DNA of 37,414 bases from Mogibacterium sp. (GTDB lineage: Bacteria; Bacillota; Clostridia; Peptostreptococcales; Anaerovoracaceae): positions 1 to 37,414 of the forward strand of contig JAFVPI010000076.1 in the NCBI GenBank assembly GCA_017505405.1, given 5' to 3'. The position numbers and the translations under genes were made by a program. The notes under the pieces are model-generated. The model was not told where the DNA came from, did not search any database, and saw nothing but the letters and a program-made list of their open reading frames with translations. This document shows, piece after piece, positions 27,653 to 37,353 of the stretch (position 1 is the first letter of the stretch; each line of letters opens with the position of its first letter).

Positions 27653-28585
27653 TTAAAGAGCAAGCGCGGTTTCTACAATATTTTCAACAGTTATGCCGTT
27701 CTTTGCAAGCAGTCTCTCATAAGGAGCGGACTCACCGAACTGATCCTGGATACCGATCCTCTTGACTTTGCCCTTGCCCATCTCAGCTGCGACCTCGCAT
27801 ACTGCGCTGCCGAGTCCGTTGATGATGTTGTGATCCTCAACTGTGACGATCTTGCCGATCTCCTCAACGCATGCCTTTACTGCATCAACGTCGAGAGGCT
27901 TGATGGTGTGCATGTCGAGAACTCTTGCCGAAACACCCTTTTCCTCCAGAGCCTTTGCCGCCTTGATAGCGAGACTTACTGTGTCACCGTTTGCGATAAT
28001 AGCTACGTCCTTACCGTCCTGGATCTGATAAGCCTTGCCGATCTCGAACTCTACGTCCGGCCCGTATACCTGCTCCATAGCGTCTCTTGTGAATCTCAGA
28101 TACATTGGTCCGTAAGTCTCTGCTGCTGCTCTTACGAGCTTGCGTGCCTGGTTGTAGTCAGCAGGCATCATGATGGAGATGTTAGGAATGGTTCTGAGGA
28201 TACCCATGTCCTCGATAGCCTGGTGCGAAGCTCCGTCGTTAGCCGGTGTGAATCCGCCGTGCGAGCATGCGATCTTGACGTTGAGGTTAGTGTAGCAGAT
28301 CTCCTGACGGATCATCTCGCAGATCCTCATCGATCCGAATGCTGCGTATGTTACTACGAACGGGATCTTTCCGCATGTTGCGAGTCCTGCTGCAACGCCT
28401 GCGCCGTTCTGCTCTGCGATACCTACGTTGAGGTACTGGTCAGGAAGCTGCTTCTTGAATTCGCCTGTCTTGCAGCTCTTGCCGATATCTATATCCAGAA
28501 CTACGATTTCCGGATTGTCTTTTCCTACTTCTACTATTTCATCGCCGAAGCCGTTTCTTGTAGGGATCTTTTTCAGTTCACTCAT
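27653..28585 (-). CDS. Transketolase, C-terminal subunit
   Basis: This 310-residue protein is the second half of a split transketolase: the pyrimidine-binding domain (residues about 5-170, with LNVGIAEQNGAGVAAGLA holding the catalytic glutamate, and ACSHGGFTPANDGASHQAIEDMG) and the C-terminal domain (about 185-310, with GSAVCEVAAEMG). It works with the N-terminal subunit encoded just upstream, 15 bases away, to move two-carbon ketol units between sugar phosphates. GAGGAGG precedes the ATG. Two-gene transketolases are common in anaerobic Firmicutes. Confidence 0.94.
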   Translation of the reverse strand: MSELKKIPTRNGFGDEIVEVGKDNPEIVVLDIDIGKSCKTGEFKKQLPDQYLNVGIAEQNGAGVAAGLATCGKIPFVVTYAAFGSMRICEMIRQEICYTNLNVKIACSHGGFTPANDGASHQAIEDMGILRTIPNISIMMPADYNQARKLVRAAAETYGPMYLRFTRDAMEQVYGPDVEFEIGKAYQIQDGKDVAIIANGDTVSLAIKAAKALEEKGVSARVLDMHTIKPLDVDAVKACVEEIGKIVTVEDHNIINGLGSAVCEVAAEMGKGKVKRIGIQDQFGESAPYERLLAKNGITVENIVETALAL

Positions 28586-28600
28586 TGTTCTGTCCTCCTC

Positions 28601-29440
28601 TTATATCAGCTGAGCCTTGAGTTCTTCCATTGCCTGTGCGTACTGTTCATCGTTAGGAGCTACGCCGTGCCAGCCTACCTGGTTCTCCATGAAGCTGACG
28701 CCCTTGCCCTTGACTGTTGCTCCGATAAGAGCCTTTGGATTGCCGTTCTGAGCCTCTGGTGCATAGCACTTGTCGAGTACTTCTACGGTCTCTTCCATGC
28801 TGTTGCCGTCATAGTAGAAGACGTCCCAGCCGAATGCCTTGAACTTAGCTCCGAGGTCACCGTTAGGCATTACTTCGTCGCATGTTCCGTCGAGCTGCAG
28901 TCTGTTTACGTCGACGAATACGATGAGGTTGTCGAGTTTATACTTGTTTGCTGTGTTTGCTGCTTCCCAGATCTCGCCTTCCTGAGCCTCGCCGTCACCG
29001 ACTACGCAGAAGACCTTGTAGTCCTTCTTGTCCATCTTTCCGGCAAGAGCCATTCCTGCTGCGCAGGCAAGTCCCTGTCCGAGAGAACCTGTCGAGATGT
29101 CGATGCCAGGGCACTTGATCATCGAAGGATGTCCCTGAAGCGGGGAGCCTTCTTTTCTCAGTGTGTCGAGTACTTCGAGCGGGAAGTATCCGAGAGCTCC
29201 GAGTGCTGCGTACTGGATAGGGCATACATGGCCTTTCGAAAGGACCATTCTGTCTCTGTCTGCCCATCTTGGGTTCTTAGGGTCAACGTTCATGTACTTG
29301 AAATAGCATGCTGTTACGAACTCTGCAGCGGACAGCGATCCACCCGGATGGCCTGACTGCGCTTTGTAGATCATGTCGATGACTTTCATACGCAGGTCTG
29401 TTGCGGCGTTCTTGAGTTCTTTGATTGAAACGTCTTTCAT
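28601..29440 (-). CDS. Transketolase, N-terminal subunit
   Basis: The 279-residue first half of transketolase holds the thiamine diphosphate phosphate-binding domain. SGHPGGSLSAAEF and KGHVCPIQYAALG carry conserved active-site histidines, and GDGEAQEGEIWEAANTANKYKLDN is the GDG...N cofactor motif. I chose the ATG at 29440, which has AAGGAG at the right distance; eight upstream codons are also open but lack a site. It follows the PanE-like gene by 53 bases. No transaldolase gene accompanies it. Confidence 0.94.
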   Translation of the reverse strand: MKDVSIKELKNAATDLRMKVIDMIYKAQSGHPGGSLSAAEFVTACYFKYMNVDPKNPRWADRDRMVLSKGHVCPIQYAALGALGYFPLEVLDTLRKEGSPLQGHPSMIKCPGIDISTGSLGQGLACAAGMALAGKMDKKDYKVFCVVGDGEAQEGEIWEAANTANKYKLDNLIVFVDVNRLQLDGTCDEVMPNGDLGAKFKAFGWDVFYYDGNSMEETVEVLDKCYAPEAQNGNPKALIGATVKGKGVSFMENQVGWHGVAPNDEQYAQAMEELKAQLI

Positions 29441-29493
29441 AATTCTCTCCTTTGCCTCTTTCAATTAAGAATCAACAAGTAATAACTTTTTTA

Positions 29494-32566: not shown

Positions 32567-33196
32567 TTACTTTGTTCCGAAGATCCTGTCGCCTGCATCT
32601 CCCAGTCCCGGTACGATGTAAGCTTTCTCGTTGAGATGATCATCCTTTGCAGCGATAAAGATGTCTACATCAGGATGCTTTGATGTGAGCGCCTCGATGC
32701 CTTCAGGAGCAGCGATAAGGAACATAAGGGCGATATCCTTTGCGCCTTTTTCCTTAACAAAGTCAACAGCAGCGATAGCGCTTCCGCCTGTAGCAAGCAT
32801 CGGGTCCACGATGATGATCTTTCTCTGGTCGATATCTTCAGGCAGCTTGCAGTAGTACTCCACAGGCTCGTGTGTCTCAGGGTCTCTGTAAAGACCAACG
32901 TGTCCGACTCTTGCACTCGGGATGATCTCGAGCATTCCGTCAACAAAGCCGAGGCCTGCTCTGAGGATAGGCACTATGGCAAGCTTCTTTCCTGCCAGGA
33001 TCGGGACTCTTGCAGGGCAGATCGGAGTTTCGATCTCTACCTCTTTGGTAGGAAGATCCCTGGTGATCTCGTAGGTCATCAGCATAGCGACCTCGCGCGC
33101 CAGATCTCTGAATTCCTTGCTCGCTGTGTTCTTGTCTCTCATCAGTGATACCTTGTGCTGGATGAGAGGGTGATCAAAAATCATTACTTTACCCAT
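32567..33196 (-). CDS. upp: Uracil phosphoribosyltransferase
   Basis: Upp salvages uracil to UMP with PRPP. The 209-residue protein has the family start [37 protein letters not shown], the PRPP loop [18 protein letters not shown] and the uracil-binding end [17 protein letters not shown]. Length is normal. GGAGG lies six bases before the ATG. It follows tsaC, an order seen in many Clostridia where upp closes the rpmE-prfA-tsaC region; here the serpin and ABM genes are appended behind it. Confidence 0.97.
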
Positions 33197-33248
33197 TGCT
33201 TACCTCCCTGAGTGTGTAATTTAATTGTGATTATTATCAATATTTTAC

Positions 33249-33265
33249 GAAAACGTCCCGTTTTC
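33249..33265 (-). terminator. Small hairpin between tsaC and upp
   Basis: GAAAACG-TCC-CGTTTTC is a perfect 7-bp stem 12 bases after the tsaC stop. On the minus strand no proper T run follows, so termination would be weak. Confidence 0.35.
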
Positions 33266-33277
33266 CCTTGATTAACA

Positions 33278-34309
33278 TTACTTAACTACGTCATAGCCCG
33301 CGCTCTTGAGCATGCGGTTCATGACGCTGAATCCGAAGCCTTTTTCCTCGAGCGTCCTGATGAGAACGAGGTCATAACCCTGTCTGTCAAGCTCGCGGAG
33401 CTCAGCAAAAAGTTTGTGTGCGGCCTTGCCCGGGTCATTATCGTAGTCGAGCAGGGCGACCTTGAGGCCTTTCTCTCTGGCCTCGAGCCCAAGTCTCATC
33501 ACCTTGCTGCGGAATTCATTATCGTCTCCTTCAATAAGACGCACGGTCGCTTTAGGCGAGTAGTGGATGTACTTCATGCCCGGCGATTTCGGTTTGAATC
33601 CCGTATCGGCTACGCCGTCTTCAGGATCTGCCACAGCCGCAGGTTTCTCGAGAAGGGAATTATCGTAAAGCACGGCCCTTCTGAGTATCCTCTCCAGCTT
33701 TTCCTTGGTGACTGCACCCGGTCTCAGTATGTATGGTTTATCTCCAGTGAGATCGACTACCGTGGATTCGATCCCCACATCACACTGCTCTCCCATGATG
33801 ACGGCATTGATGCGTCCGTCCATGTCCTCGAGCACGTCATCCGCGGTGGTAGGGCTCGGTCTTCCCGAAAGGTTCGCGCTAGGAGCGGCGATAGGCCTTC
33901 CCGTAAGTTTTATGAGTCTCCTTGCGGTCGGGTTAGATGGCATGCGTATGGCAACCGTATCCAGCCCACCGGTGGTCACATCAGGAACGATGTCGGCCTT
34001 TTTGAATATAAGGGTCAGCGGCCCAGGCCACAGGCTGATCATCAGCTTTGATGCGTCATCGCTGAGTCCCTTTATGCCTCCGTCAATGAGCGCATAAAGA
34101 TCGGTCGCATTGGCGATGTGGACTATCATCGGATTATCCGAAGGGCGGCCTTTTGCCTTATATACAGAAGCGACGGCCTCTGCATCGAGAGCATTCGCTC
34201 CGAGCCCGTAGACCGTCTCTGTAGGAAAAGCAACAAGACCGCCGGCTCTGATGATTTCGCCGGCAAGCTTAAGGTCGCTTTCATTTGTTGATAATCTGAG
34301 TGTTTCCAT
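33278..34309 (-). CDS. tsaC: L-threonylcarbamoyladenylate synthase (Sua5 type)
   Basis: The enzyme makes threonylcarbamoyl-AMP from threonine, bicarbonate and ATP for the t6A37 modification of ANN-reading tRNAs. The 343-residue protein has the YrdC domain (residues 1-205) with GGLVAFPTETVYGLGANAL, VYKAKGRPSDNPMIVHI, GRPIAAPSANLSGRPSPT and GIESTVVDL. A C-terminal Sua5 domain (about 240-343) follows a linker with SPGMKYIHYSPKA. No ribosome binding site precedes the ATG at 34309; the bases just upstream are very AT-rich, with TATTAT eleven bases away, so a short or absent leader is possible. It lies 65 bases after prfA. Confidence 0.94.
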   Translation of the reverse strand: METLRLSTNESDLKLAGEIIRAGGLVAFPTETVYGLGANALDAEAVASVYKAKGRPSDNPMIVHIANATDLYALIDGGIKGLSDDASKLMISLWPGPLTLIFKKADIVPDVTTGGLDTVAIRMPSNPTARRLIKLTGRPIAAPSANLSGRPSPTTADDVLEDMDGRINAVIMGEQCDVGIESTVVDLTGDKPYILRPGAVTKEKLERILRRAVLYDNSLLEKPAAVADPEDGVADTGFKPKSPGMKYIHYSPKATVRLIEGDDNEFRSKVMRLGLEAREKGLKVALLDYDNDPGKAAHKLFAELRELDRQGYDLVLIRTLEEKGFGFSVMNRMLKSAGYDVVK

Positions 34310-34374
34310 TTATATACTATATAATACTGCTCTTAAAGCGACGTATTTTTCGTTCGTGGCGAAAAAGACAAGCT

Positions 34375-35442
34375 TTAACCGAAATCCTTCATCTTTGCTG
34401 CCTGGTCGGCAGTGATAAGTCCGTCGATAGCCTCATCGATATCTCCGTCGAGGAACTGGTCCAGCTTATACATGGTAAGATTGATGCGGTGATCCGTGAT
34501 TCTTCCCTGAGGGAAATTGTATGTGCGGATACGCTCAGAACGGTCGCCCGAACCGACCTGGCTTCTTCTATCAGCCGAGATCTTGTCATTCTGCTCCTGC
34601 ACCATCTTATCGTATAGTCTGGCCTTGAGTACTCTCATGGCCTTCTCTCTGTTCTGGATCTGCGACTTCTCGTCCTGGCATGTGACTACGATGCCTGTAG
34701 GAAGGTGAGTCATGCGGACAGCAGAGTCCGTAGTATTTACGCACTGGCCGCCGTTTCCGGATGCCCTGTAAACGTCTACCTTTACGTCATTCGGATTGAT
34801 CTCTACCTCAACATCATCGACTTCCGGAAGTACGGCAACTGTAGCCGCCGATGTGTGGATACGGCCCGATGATTCAGTCTCAGGCACTCTCTGCACTCTG
34901 TGTACTCCCGATTCGAATTTGAGTCTCGAGTATGCGCCGCGCCCCTTGATCATTACAACAGCTTCCTTGATGCCGCCGATTCCGGTATCGCTTATTTCGA
35001 TGATCTCGGCCTTCCAGTGACGGCGCTCAGCGTATCTGAGATACATCCTCAGCAGGTCGTTGCCGAAGAGAGCAGCTTCCTCGCCGCCTGTGCCGGCTCT
35101 GATCTCAAGGATAACGTTCTTGTCATCGTTAGGGTCCTTAGGGAGGAGCAGGATCTTCAGCTCTTCCTGAGCTTTTTCCATCTTCTCCTCGAGCTCCTTG
35201 GCTTCTTCCTTGGCCATCTCCCGCATTTCTTCATCGTCTTCGAGATCGATGAGCTCTCTGGCATCTGCAAGATCGCTCTGCATCTTGCGATAGCTCTCGT
35301 AAGCCCTTACGACCGGTTCGATCTCAGCCATTTCCTTCATGTGCTTCTGCCATGTCTTCTGGTCGGCGATGACAGCAGGATCAGCTACTTTCTCTGCGAG
35401 CTCATTATATTTTTCAGTAATAAAGTCTAATTTATCAAACAT
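34375..35442 (-). CDS. prfA: Peptide chain release factor 1
   Basis: RF1 reads UAA and UAG and triggers peptide release. The 355-residue protein has the codon-recognition motif Pro187-Glu-Thr189 in [15 protein letters not shown] (the PxT motif of RF1, not SPF of RF2) and the catalytic Gly231-Gly-Gln233 in [20 protein letters not shown]. The N-terminus [15 protein letters not shown] is typical. AGAGGTG lies seven bases before the ATG at 35442. The gene is preceded by an unusual leader with its own short ORF ending in UAG and a hairpin, after a separate promoter. tsaC follows. prmC, the methyltransferase that modifies the GGQ glutamine and often sits beside prfA, is not in the window. Confidence 0.97.
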
Positions 35443-35472
35443 ATATAAACACCTCTTTCTGTACGCAAAATA

Positions 35473-35502
35473 GATAACGGATTCTCATTGCAGTCCGCTA
35501 TC
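35473..35502 (-). promoter_or_regulatory. Hairpin in the prfA leader, overlapping a UAG stop
   Basis: On the minus strand GATAGCGGA (35494-35502) pairs with TCCGTTATC (35473-35481), nine pairs with one G-U and a 12-base loop. The UAG stop of the leader ORF lies within the 5' arm. ATTTTG follows the stem, so it might be a weak terminator or a ribosome-sensitive switch. Confidence 0.5.
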
Positions 35503-35539
35503 GTCCTTCAAGTATTCTGCGTCCAGTTCTGTCGGTCAT
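35498..35539 (-). CDS. Leader peptide ORF upstream of prfA
   Basis: A 13-codon frame, MTDRTGRRILEGR, begins at an ATG at 35539 with AAAAGGAG six bases upstream, as good a site as any in the window. It ends CGA-UAG-C. UAG is read only by RF1, and C after the stop is known to weaken termination. If UAG is read through, the same frame stays open for 22 more codons and ends at a UGA that overlaps the prfA start (bases 6-8 of prfA). UGA is read only by RF2. The design suggests a sensor of RF1 activity controlling prfA. I know of no described family for it. The chance of a fortuitous ORF of this size is not small; conservation is the key test. Confidence 0.5.
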   Translation of the reverse strand: MTDRTGRRILEGR

Positions 35540-35569
35540 TACTTTCTCCTTTTAAATCTTAACCAATTA

Positions 35570-35578
35570 ATTATATCA
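35570..35578 (-). promoter_or_regulatory. Extended -10 promoter of prfA
   Basis: Minus-strand TGATATAAT matches the extended -10 element TGnTATAAT perfectly. The -35 region (TGTATT, 16 bases upstream) is weak, as is usual for extended -10 promoters. The start would be near 35563, giving a leader of about 120 bases that holds the short ORF and hairpin. Confidence 0.65.
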
Positions 35579-35618
35579 AAAATGCTGCGCCAATACAGCC
35601 AGTGATCAATGAATGCAT

Positions 35619-35653
35619 GAAAAAAGCCCTGACTCCCTATGAAGTCCGGGCTT
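35619..35653 (-). terminator. Terminator of rpmE
   Basis: AAGCCC/GGGCTT with an inner GACT/AGTC (35624-35653) forms a stem of ten pairs with one mismatch, followed on the minus strand by four T beyond the stem. It ends the rpmE transcript before the prfA promoter. Confidence 0.85.
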
Positions 35654-35973: not shown

Positions 35974-37353
35974 TTATTTCACCTTTGCGTGACGTCCCAC
36001 TTTGAATATCAATATGTCGAGTATCAGCAGATATGCTGCCGCAAGACCTAGTGTAACAAAGCACATCGCAGGGCTCTTTGCAGCGAGTCCCACAAGTATG
36101 AGCACCGGTGCTCCGAGCAGAATGCCGAAGCTGGATCCCACTACCAGATTGTTTGCTGCAGGGGTCTCGAGCTGCGGATCGATCTCACGCAGGAGAAGCA
36201 CTCCTGAACTTATGGTTCCTGTCAGCATGCCGTACATTGAGATAAGTCCCTCGTAGTAATAATCGCCATAAACCGCCTTGCATACCCAGCGCAGGTGGAA
36301 CCACGTCACAATGGTTCCTGCAACGACGAGCAGCACAAACGGCAGCACGAGTCCGCGGATGTCTTCTATATCTATACATCCTATACCTGCAACGATCATG
36401 ATGTCGAAGAACGCTCCGGAGAGACGGTTGAGCAGGTAGTTGTCCTGATAGCGCCTCTTGATGGATCCTTTCTTTCTGAGCTTCTCAAGGATGACCCTGA
36501 GGAGAATGGCAAGGGCAGAACCGATGATGAAATTGAAACCCCAGAGCAGGGTGTTGACCGTGCCTGCGAGTCCCTCGCTGAGTTTTGCGATCCCGCCTGT
36601 GATGCCTGCAGTCACAACATAAGTTGCAAGGTATACGATGACTATCATCGCGAGCTGCACGCTGAGCTTATCGATCGATTCTGCAATATCATTGCTTTCA
36701 GCGTCTCCAAGGTGGTCGTCACGAAGGACGGTTATGCTGTTTACATCAGATATTTTAAGCTCACCTGACTTGCGCAGAAGGTTCAGGATTATAACACCTA
36801 CAAGGCAAGCCACTATGTAGCCGGCGGCGGCTATCGAAAGGCCGAAGCTGTGTCCGCCTTCAAAACCGAGAGACTGATAGCTCGCTCCGATGTTGTTTGC
36901 CTGGCCGGGACCCTGACCGAATCCCATAGGAAGCAGGAGTCCTGCAGCCCTGAACATATCCGGCATAACGGTGAGCGCGAGGCCTATAGTAATGATCAGG
37001 CCTGTGACGCCCTGTATCATATATGTGCTGACTATTACAGCGCCCGAGCGGAATCCGACCTTGCTTTCGTCTCCCGCTTCTCTCTGAACAGGGTTTCGCA
37101 GGCTCATTGCGATGAAGCCGAGCGCGATCCCGTGATAGGTGAGGGCGGAAAGCAGGTTTTCATCAAGCGTGACCAGCCCGATCTCCTTGGCAATCAGGAG
37201 AATGAAGCCTCCGAGGACCGCTACAGGAAGCATGGTCTTGCGTATAGGTTTGACAGTCTGCCTGAGACAGATAGCGATCAGGATCACAGCGGCAACATAG
37301 CCCATCTGTATGATCACATTCCACAGTGCATGATTGGCTGCTGAATAATCCAA
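35974..37353 (-). CDS. GltS-family sodium/carboxylate symporter
   Basis: The 459-residue membrane protein has about 11-12 helices and belongs to the sodium/glutamate symporter family. The first pore region, LLPMGFGQGPGQANNIGASYQ, keeps the glycine- and glutamine-rich motif of GltS, and its counterpart LISMYGMLTGTISSGVLLLREIDP lies in the second half. It is closer to classical GltS than the permease at 25232-26548. The start codon is TTG at 37353, six bases after AAGGAG; no in-frame ATG lies near. A cytoplasmic loop around SVNSITVLRDDHLGDAESND joins the halves. No partner gene is adjacent; upstream sequence is cut by the window edge. Confidence 0.87.
   Translation of the reverse strand: MDYSAANHALWNVIIQMGYVAAVILIAICLRQTVKPIRKTMLPVAVLGGFILLIAKEIGLVTLDENLLSALTYHGIALGFIAMSLRNPVQREAGDESKVGFRSGAVIVSTYMIQGVTGLIITIGLALTVMPDMFRAAGLLLPMGFGQGPGQANNIGASYQSLGFEGGHSFGLSIAAAGYIVACLVGVIILNLLRKSGELKISDVNSITVLRDDHLGDAESNDIAESIDKLSVQLAMIVIVYLATYVVTAGITGGIAKLSEGLAGTVNTLLWGFNFIIGSALAILLRVILEKLRKKGSIKRRYQDNYLLNRLSGAFFDIMIVAGIGCIDIEDIRGLVLPFVLLVVAGTIVTWFHLRWVCKAVYGDYYYEGLISMYGMLTGTISSGVLLLREIDPQLETPAANNLVVGSSFGILLGAPVLILVGLAAKSPAMCFVTLGLAAAYLLILDILIFKVGRHAKVK

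Follow-up and report, generated by a model that had tools for sequence, protein, structure and literature searches.

The leader of prfA, the gene for peptide chain release factor 1 (RF1), in Mogibacterium sp. probably acts as an RF1-sensing translational switch, through which RF1 exerts negative feedback on its own gene. We conclude that the leader is real and under selection, and negative feedback on RF1 is the simplest function that can be assigned to it. NCBI assigns Mogibacterium to the Anaerovoracaceae. The analysed stretch of 37,414 nucleotides (here termed the window) is one contig of a 2.3-Mb genome, which comprises 148 contigs and is 95% complete.

The minus strand of the window carries, in this order, rpmE (L31), the leader, prfA, tsaC, and upp. 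The product of prfA (34375 to 35442, minus strand; ATG at 35442 to 35440) was identified as RF1 by NCBIfam (TIGR00019, 551.7 bits at a cut-off of 423.25) and Pfam (PCRF and RF-1 domains). Together with tsaC and upp, prfA occupies positions 32567 to 35442 (minus strand); because these two genes come after prfA, prmC is not the next gene. Elsewhere on this strand, one ORF of an adjacent pair (27653 to 29464) matches the first part of transketolase and the other its second part, and a membrane-protein-like ORF of 459 amino acids (35974 to 37353) had no NCBIfam or Pfam match at an E value of ≤0.001.

The leader, whose features all lie on the minus strand, begins with an extended -10 promoter element, TGATATAAT (35570 to 35578), followed by a Shine-Dalgarno sequence AGGAG (35546 to 35550) and an ORF (35498 to 35539) that encodes MTDRTGRRILEGR. 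The ORF comprises 13 sense codons from its ATG (35539 to 35537) to CGA (35503 to 35501), and is terminated by UAG (35500 to 35498) with C as the next base. An earlier note on this DNA had pointed out the promoter element, the strong ribosome-binding site, and the ORF ending CGA-UAG-C, and had placed UAG inside the 5' arm of a 9-bp hairpin; both observations were confirmed. In this inner hairpin, P2, the 5' arm GAUAGCGGA (35494 to 35502), which contains UAG, pairs with the 3' arm UCCGUUAUC (35473 to 35481). P2 is nested in an outer helix, P1, which the note had not described. Its 5' arm, CUG.ACGCAGAAUA (35513 to 35526), covers codons 5 to 9, and its 3' arm, UAUUUUGCGU.CAG (35459 to 35472), adjoins the prfA ribosome-binding site, where the Shine-Dalgarno sequence AGAGG occupies 35452 to 35456. 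All four arms were obtained from the fold of the window as well as from the consensus of 12 leaders. The predicted fold of the window leader had a free energy of -30.7 kcal/mol (z score of -3.57), and 1 of 200 shuffled sequences was equally low. The promoter was called by eye and by its recurrence upstream of the ORF in 16/16 leaders with the module; it was absent from the output of a consensus promoter scan that requires a -35 box. Searches against Rfam returned no match at the gathering score in the whole window, and none up to an E value of 1 between 35400 and 35665. Terminator-like sites were reported by a consensus scan at 35646 to 35631 (after rpmE) and at 35599 to 35584.

Within the genus, 42/47 genomes had a prfA match and 41 a readable leader (in L043, the match starts within the gene). 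The leader ORF was present in 16/41 and missing in 25/41. Among the 16, 12 leaders form group A with the peptide MTDRTGRRILEGR (L001, the window itself, and L003, L004, L005, L006, L007, L008, L010, L011, L012, L019, and L024; in L006, M replaces I), and 4 form group B (L022, L025, L027, and L036) with the peptides MKDRNGRSILEER, MRDRNGNRMLEER, and MRDRNGKRMLEER. An example of a leader lacking the module is L029, in which the promoter element and AGGAG lead straight to prfA. The earlier note had named conservation of the ORF, of UAG, and of the hairpin among related genomes as a check, and had counted a transcription start downstream of 35539 against its proposal. UAG was found in all 16 ORF-bearing leaders, the hairpin in 12 of them, and the promoter element upstream of the ORF in every one; the ORF itself is confined to the 16. 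Within this lineage the proposal therefore withstood the comparison, since ORF, UAG, and hairpin are kept and the promoter lies upstream. In 16/16 leaders, a Shine-Dalgarno-led ORF is located 3' of TGATATAAT and predicted to share the prfA transcript, as in leader-peptide translational switches, the kind of control by which the leader would work.

Beyond the genus, searches with a model of the ORF under stricter filters, at which weak matches are lost, gave matches only within the genus: 16 of 349 family genomes had one at E values of ≤1e-12, and 7 of the 393 genomes sampled from the order had one at ≤1e-4. Weaker family matches were rejected as homologues: 18 of the 34 matching genomes had weak ones only (E values of 3.8e-5 to 0.0092), and 14 of the 21 weak rows, which were inspected, resembled other coding sequence, with prfA as the next gene in none. 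One weak match (L065) is located ∼0.8 kb ahead of a release-factor-like ORF with 32% identity. A peptide-level pattern that allowed any stop codon, run against a collection of 84,980 species by exact matching, which would miss diverged peptides, retrieved 15 stretches, corresponding to the 16 module genomes minus the window's own. Five of these 15 contigs come from sheep or goat gut. No equivalent leader was present among the 49 parsed of 60 family leaders from other genera or the 65 parsed of 69 phylum leaders. The module occurs once in its own genome and once in each of the 15 stretches, upstream of prfA, and a mobile element was rejected on account of these counts. On the prfA tree, its presence requires at least six changes; because L022 (group B) and L024 (group A) share one six-row group (support, 91/96), gain, loss, and transfer are inseparable.

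UAG leaders that might have arisen elsewhere were sought in 139 module-less prfA leaders (the 65 phylum and 49 family leaders plus 25 from the genus). Their 27 Shine-Dalgarno-led ORFs with ATG ended with TAA (11), TGA (8), or TAG (8), so UAG is not enriched. Two similar-looking ORFs of six codons, MTPSWR-UAGC (L209) and MTACWK-UAGC (L228), located 46 to 61 nt before prfA in distant phylum genomes, were set aside by eye; they seem to arise from the end of the upstream gene, read in an overlapping frame (coding of the DDSxLEVA type).

All 16 ORFs have 13 codons with CGA as the last and TGATATAAT upstream, and the stop codon, never UAA or UGA, is embedded in CGA-UAG-CG throughout. UAG is released only by RF1, and a C after the stop weakens release. 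Among 96 ORFs of 220 amino acids or more, sampled from nine stretches of the same genome, stop codons were TAA in 56, TGA in 22, and TAG in 18, and TAGC occurred once. CGA accounted for 31 of 2,013 arginine codons in ORFs of this size; its count varied with the gene set (2/490 in 35 hand-picked ORFs of the window; 22/766 in ORFs of ≥150 amino acids from module genomes), and the 16 prfA genes used it for none of their 412 arginine codons. Pairing within P2 accounts for neither choice. The G of UAG faces U as a G.U wobble in 12/12 group A leaders, where UAA would give the better pairing; the C of CGA is unpaired, and for the stem AGA would do. Moreover, group B lacks P2, yet UAG and CGA are fixed there too. 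Both codons thus look chosen. For its own stop codon, prfA uses TAA in 8 of 15 module genomes and TAG in the other 7, with at least three changes on the prfA tree (the gene of L036 is cut short).

The rarity of CGA and its fixation in 16/16 leaders could also mean that ribosomes stall at this codon instead of at the stop, in which case the leader would sense charged tRNA-Arg (ICG) or arginine shortage like an attenuator. Four of the 13 residues of the window peptide are arginine. At the loci covering tRNA hits in this incomplete genome, ARAGORN named two tRNA-Arg genes with anticodon ACG as well as TCT and CCT anticodons, and no TCG; with this set, CGA would be decoded through I.A wobble. However, the arginines at codons 7 and 8 are lost in members of group B (replaced by N, K, or S), and the fixed UAG and prfA as target are left unexplained, so that we regard arginine sensing as rather unlikely.

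Conservation extends to the peptide and, in group A, to the RNA. D3, R4, G6, L10, E11, and R13 are identical in 16/16 peptides, consistent with a conserved nascent peptide reaching the stop. In group A, 37/42 bases of the ORF are invariant, while at fourfold sites of prfA the mean divergence is 45% within the group (19 to 65%) and 55% between groups A and B. This conservation is high, although not beyond that of coding sequence, as the best 42-base stretch of prfA also has 37/42. All five variable sites in the group A ORF are third positions (synonymous in codons 2, 3, 10, and 12, and once changing codon 9 to Met); with both groups combined, 9 of 14 variable sites are. Third positions that are paired in the consensus fold (codons 5 to 8 and 13) do not vary (0/5), versus 5/7 of the unpaired ones (one-sided Fisher test, 0.027, by hand arithmetic). 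In the 12 group A prfA genes, fixed residues rarely kept a single codon (Thr, 0/14; Gly, 2/20; Arg, 6/23). This pattern indicates that the peptide and the RNA are both under selection. P1/P2 are invariant in the 12 leaders, with no covariation.

A peptide conserved across both groups while the RNA structure differs would also be expected if a small molecule or antibiotic, together with the nascent peptide, inhibited release at UAG in the manner of TnaC, SpeFL, or MsrDL, and RF1 were induced as relief. The context suggests no ligand, and with prfA as the regulated gene, RF1 itself is the more obvious signal. Furthermore, in the passages cited for MsrDL (PMC10314930), UAA is the prevailing stop, and induction was lower when it was replaced by UAG or UGA, as opposed to the fixed UAG of the prfA leader. 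We therefore consider a ligand-dependent leader unlikely.

The two groups differ in the structure that follows the sensor. In group A, comprising 12/16 module leaders, the nested P1/P2 hairpin ends directly before the prfA Shine-Dalgarno sequence. The start codon is not sequestered, with 0 expected pairs to the prfA start. When a ribosome was masked in at UAG, the predicted cost of opening the region from -22 to +14 dropped in 16/16 leaders, and in group A the mean fell from 12.1 to 7.7 kcal/mol (12/12 leaders). In 14/16 leaders (10/12 in group A), no more than 1 of 60 shuffled spacers gave as large a drop; the exceptions were the window's own leader (15/60) and L005 (9/60). For the narrower region from -17 to +12, the group A mean fell from 7.6 to 6.0 kcal/mol, and the drop in the window was nil. 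Adding another ribosome at the beginning of the ORF did not change the opening cost further in any consistent way. In these models, the output step is weakest in the window's own leader.

For group A, the output step is the part of which we are least sure, and attenuation of transcription at P2 has to be considered as an alternative with the same sensor: P2 and the U-rich stretch behind it might constitute a weak transcription terminator whose formation is prevented by the waiting ribosome. A UUUU run follows P2 in 12/12 leaders and is retained where C would pair better with the G of codon 8 in P1; in addition, the prfA start in the window is not sequestered. Nevertheless, the U run also pairs within P1, group B masks the start codon instead, and P2 was absent from the output of the terminator scan, possibly because the scan allows loops of up to 8 only. 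We assign this alternative a low probability, though the highest among the alternatives weighed here.

In group B, all four leaders are predicted to mask the prfA start by the RNA immediately after UAG. In L025, L027, and L036, CGAAUAUGUCU right after UAG is complementary to AGACAUGUUYG at the prfA start, and in L022, CAUGAUA..UGAUU in the same place is complementary to AAUCA.UAUCAUG. The anti-start sequences thus differ, and the pairing relation is kept. The number of pairs expected to form between the prfA start and the bases following UAG was 13.8 in L022, 12.2 in L025, 13.1 in L027, and 11.6 in L036, compared with means of 1.13, 0.37, 0.75, and 0.38 for shuffled spacers, and the value was reached by 0/100 shuffles in each case. 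The probability that the start codon is unpaired was 0.00 to 0.03 in the free state and 0.34 to 0.81 when UAG was modelled as occupied by a ribosome. The free-state opening cost of L025 and L036 was not above that of shuffles (38/60 and 50/60 reached the value). Among the 27 ORFs of module-less leaders, one (in L029) likewise showed 11.1 expected pairs of the prfA start with the segment past the stop of the upstream gene; since this segment sits at the promoter, it is probably not in the transcript.

Complementarity to the start right after UAG, achieved with different sequences in L022 versus L025, L027, and L036, would be left unexplained, as would CGA-UAG-C, by a constitutive leader that merely sets prfA translation without sensing and is conserved for RNA stability or initiation. 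Such a leader would fit the patchy presence of the module and the existence of relatives such as L029 that do without it; overall, we find it very unlikely.

The earlier note had proposed that ribosomes stall at or read through UAG and reinitiate at prfA, with a UGA recognized by RF2 only as the exit. The frame on which this was based is indeed open in the window, to a UGA that overlaps prfA codons 2 and 3; it holds 20 sense codons, and the 22 given in the note are reached only by counting both stops. After UAG, UGA is the next stop in 7/16 leaders, whereas the remaining nine next meet UAG (3) or UAA (2) or continue into prfA (4), and the spacing between the first bases of the ORF and of prfA (94 to 98 or 124 to 130 nt) includes all three remainders modulo 3. 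Since the frame after UAG is not conserved, read-through with an RF2-only exit was rejected, and its probability is negligible. In L004, L006, L010, and L036, read-through would extend RF1 in frame, a property that is not conserved. Reinitiation is not needed either, because the prfA start codon in group B is predicted to pair with the bases behind UAG. What stands is the notion that a ribosome held at UAG would open an inhibitory structure, with which the anatomy agrees. Overall, the interpretation given in the note was partly supported.

We thus favor the following mechanism for the RF1-sensing switch. Ribosomes would translate the 13-codon peptide up to CGA-UAG-C, where release would be slowed by the rare CGA, by the C after the stop, and probably by the conserved peptide. 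With ample RF1, the ribosome would leave UAG, the downstream RNA would fold, and prfA translation would fall; the fold would be the nested P1/P2 hairpin abutting the prfA ribosome-binding site in group A and a helix with the prfA start codon in group B. With scarce RF1, the ribosome would wait on UAG and cover the next segment, so that the inhibitory structure would be blocked and prfA translated. The ORF, its UAG and CGA, the promoter element, the predicted structures, and the conservation of all of these were established by sequence comparison; slow release, dependence on RF1, and the direction and size of the effect we infer from them.

In erm- and cat-type leaders, a ribosome held on the leader ORF frees the downstream start by changed RNA pairing. 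This layout is present in group B, while in group A the start codon is left unmasked. The signal also differs: in the erm/cat type it is a drug acting during elongation, and in the prfA leader it would be RF1 acting at a stop codon. TnaC, SpeFL, and MsrDL, which in the passages cited (PMC10314930) sense tryptophan, ornithine, or macrolides, likewise exert control through impeded release where a short leader ORF ends; by comparison, the prfA leader has no known ligand, its UAG is fixed, and its target is RF1.

With respect to RF1, one study notes "no reports of RF1 autoregulation to our knowledge" (PMC8073009), another that an in-frame early UAG within RF1 genes "is also unknown" (PMC5009743), both statements being taken from excerpts of these papers. 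An excerpt of the former also states that in Bacillus subtilis the RF1 level had no effect on its own promoter, which concerns another species and the promoter only. Among the open-access titles and beginnings of abstracts listed, a scope outside which most of the subscription literature lies, none dealt with RF1 autoregulation via a leader ORF.

The closest counterpart is the frameshift autoregulation of prfB, the gene for RF2 (as outlined in the cited parts of PMC5009743 and PMC12421855). There, an in-frame stop within the gene is bypassed by a +1 frameshift. The prfA leader shares with it a stop specific to the encoded factor and followed by C (UAG-C in 16/16), but it involves no recoding: its stop ends a separate leader ORF, and its output is an RNA structure at the prfA start. 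Because this defining recoding step is lacking, we place the prfA leader outside the prfB frameshift class. In the same genome, prfB (L002) carries the customary frameshift site, with CUUUGAC preceded by GGAGGC. On balance, the prfA leader may well represent the first RF1 autoregulatory loop, in which CGA-UAG-C meters RF1 and a fixed sensor is connected to at least three RNA outputs (P1/P2 and two unrelated anti-start helices); together with the prfB site, both release factors would then be under stop-codon feedback. If so, the leader would be a compact sensor of UAG termination that shows how some cells match RF1 to their UAG load, and a natural RF1 meter, the RF1 counterpart to the self-control of RF2 through UGA in prfB.
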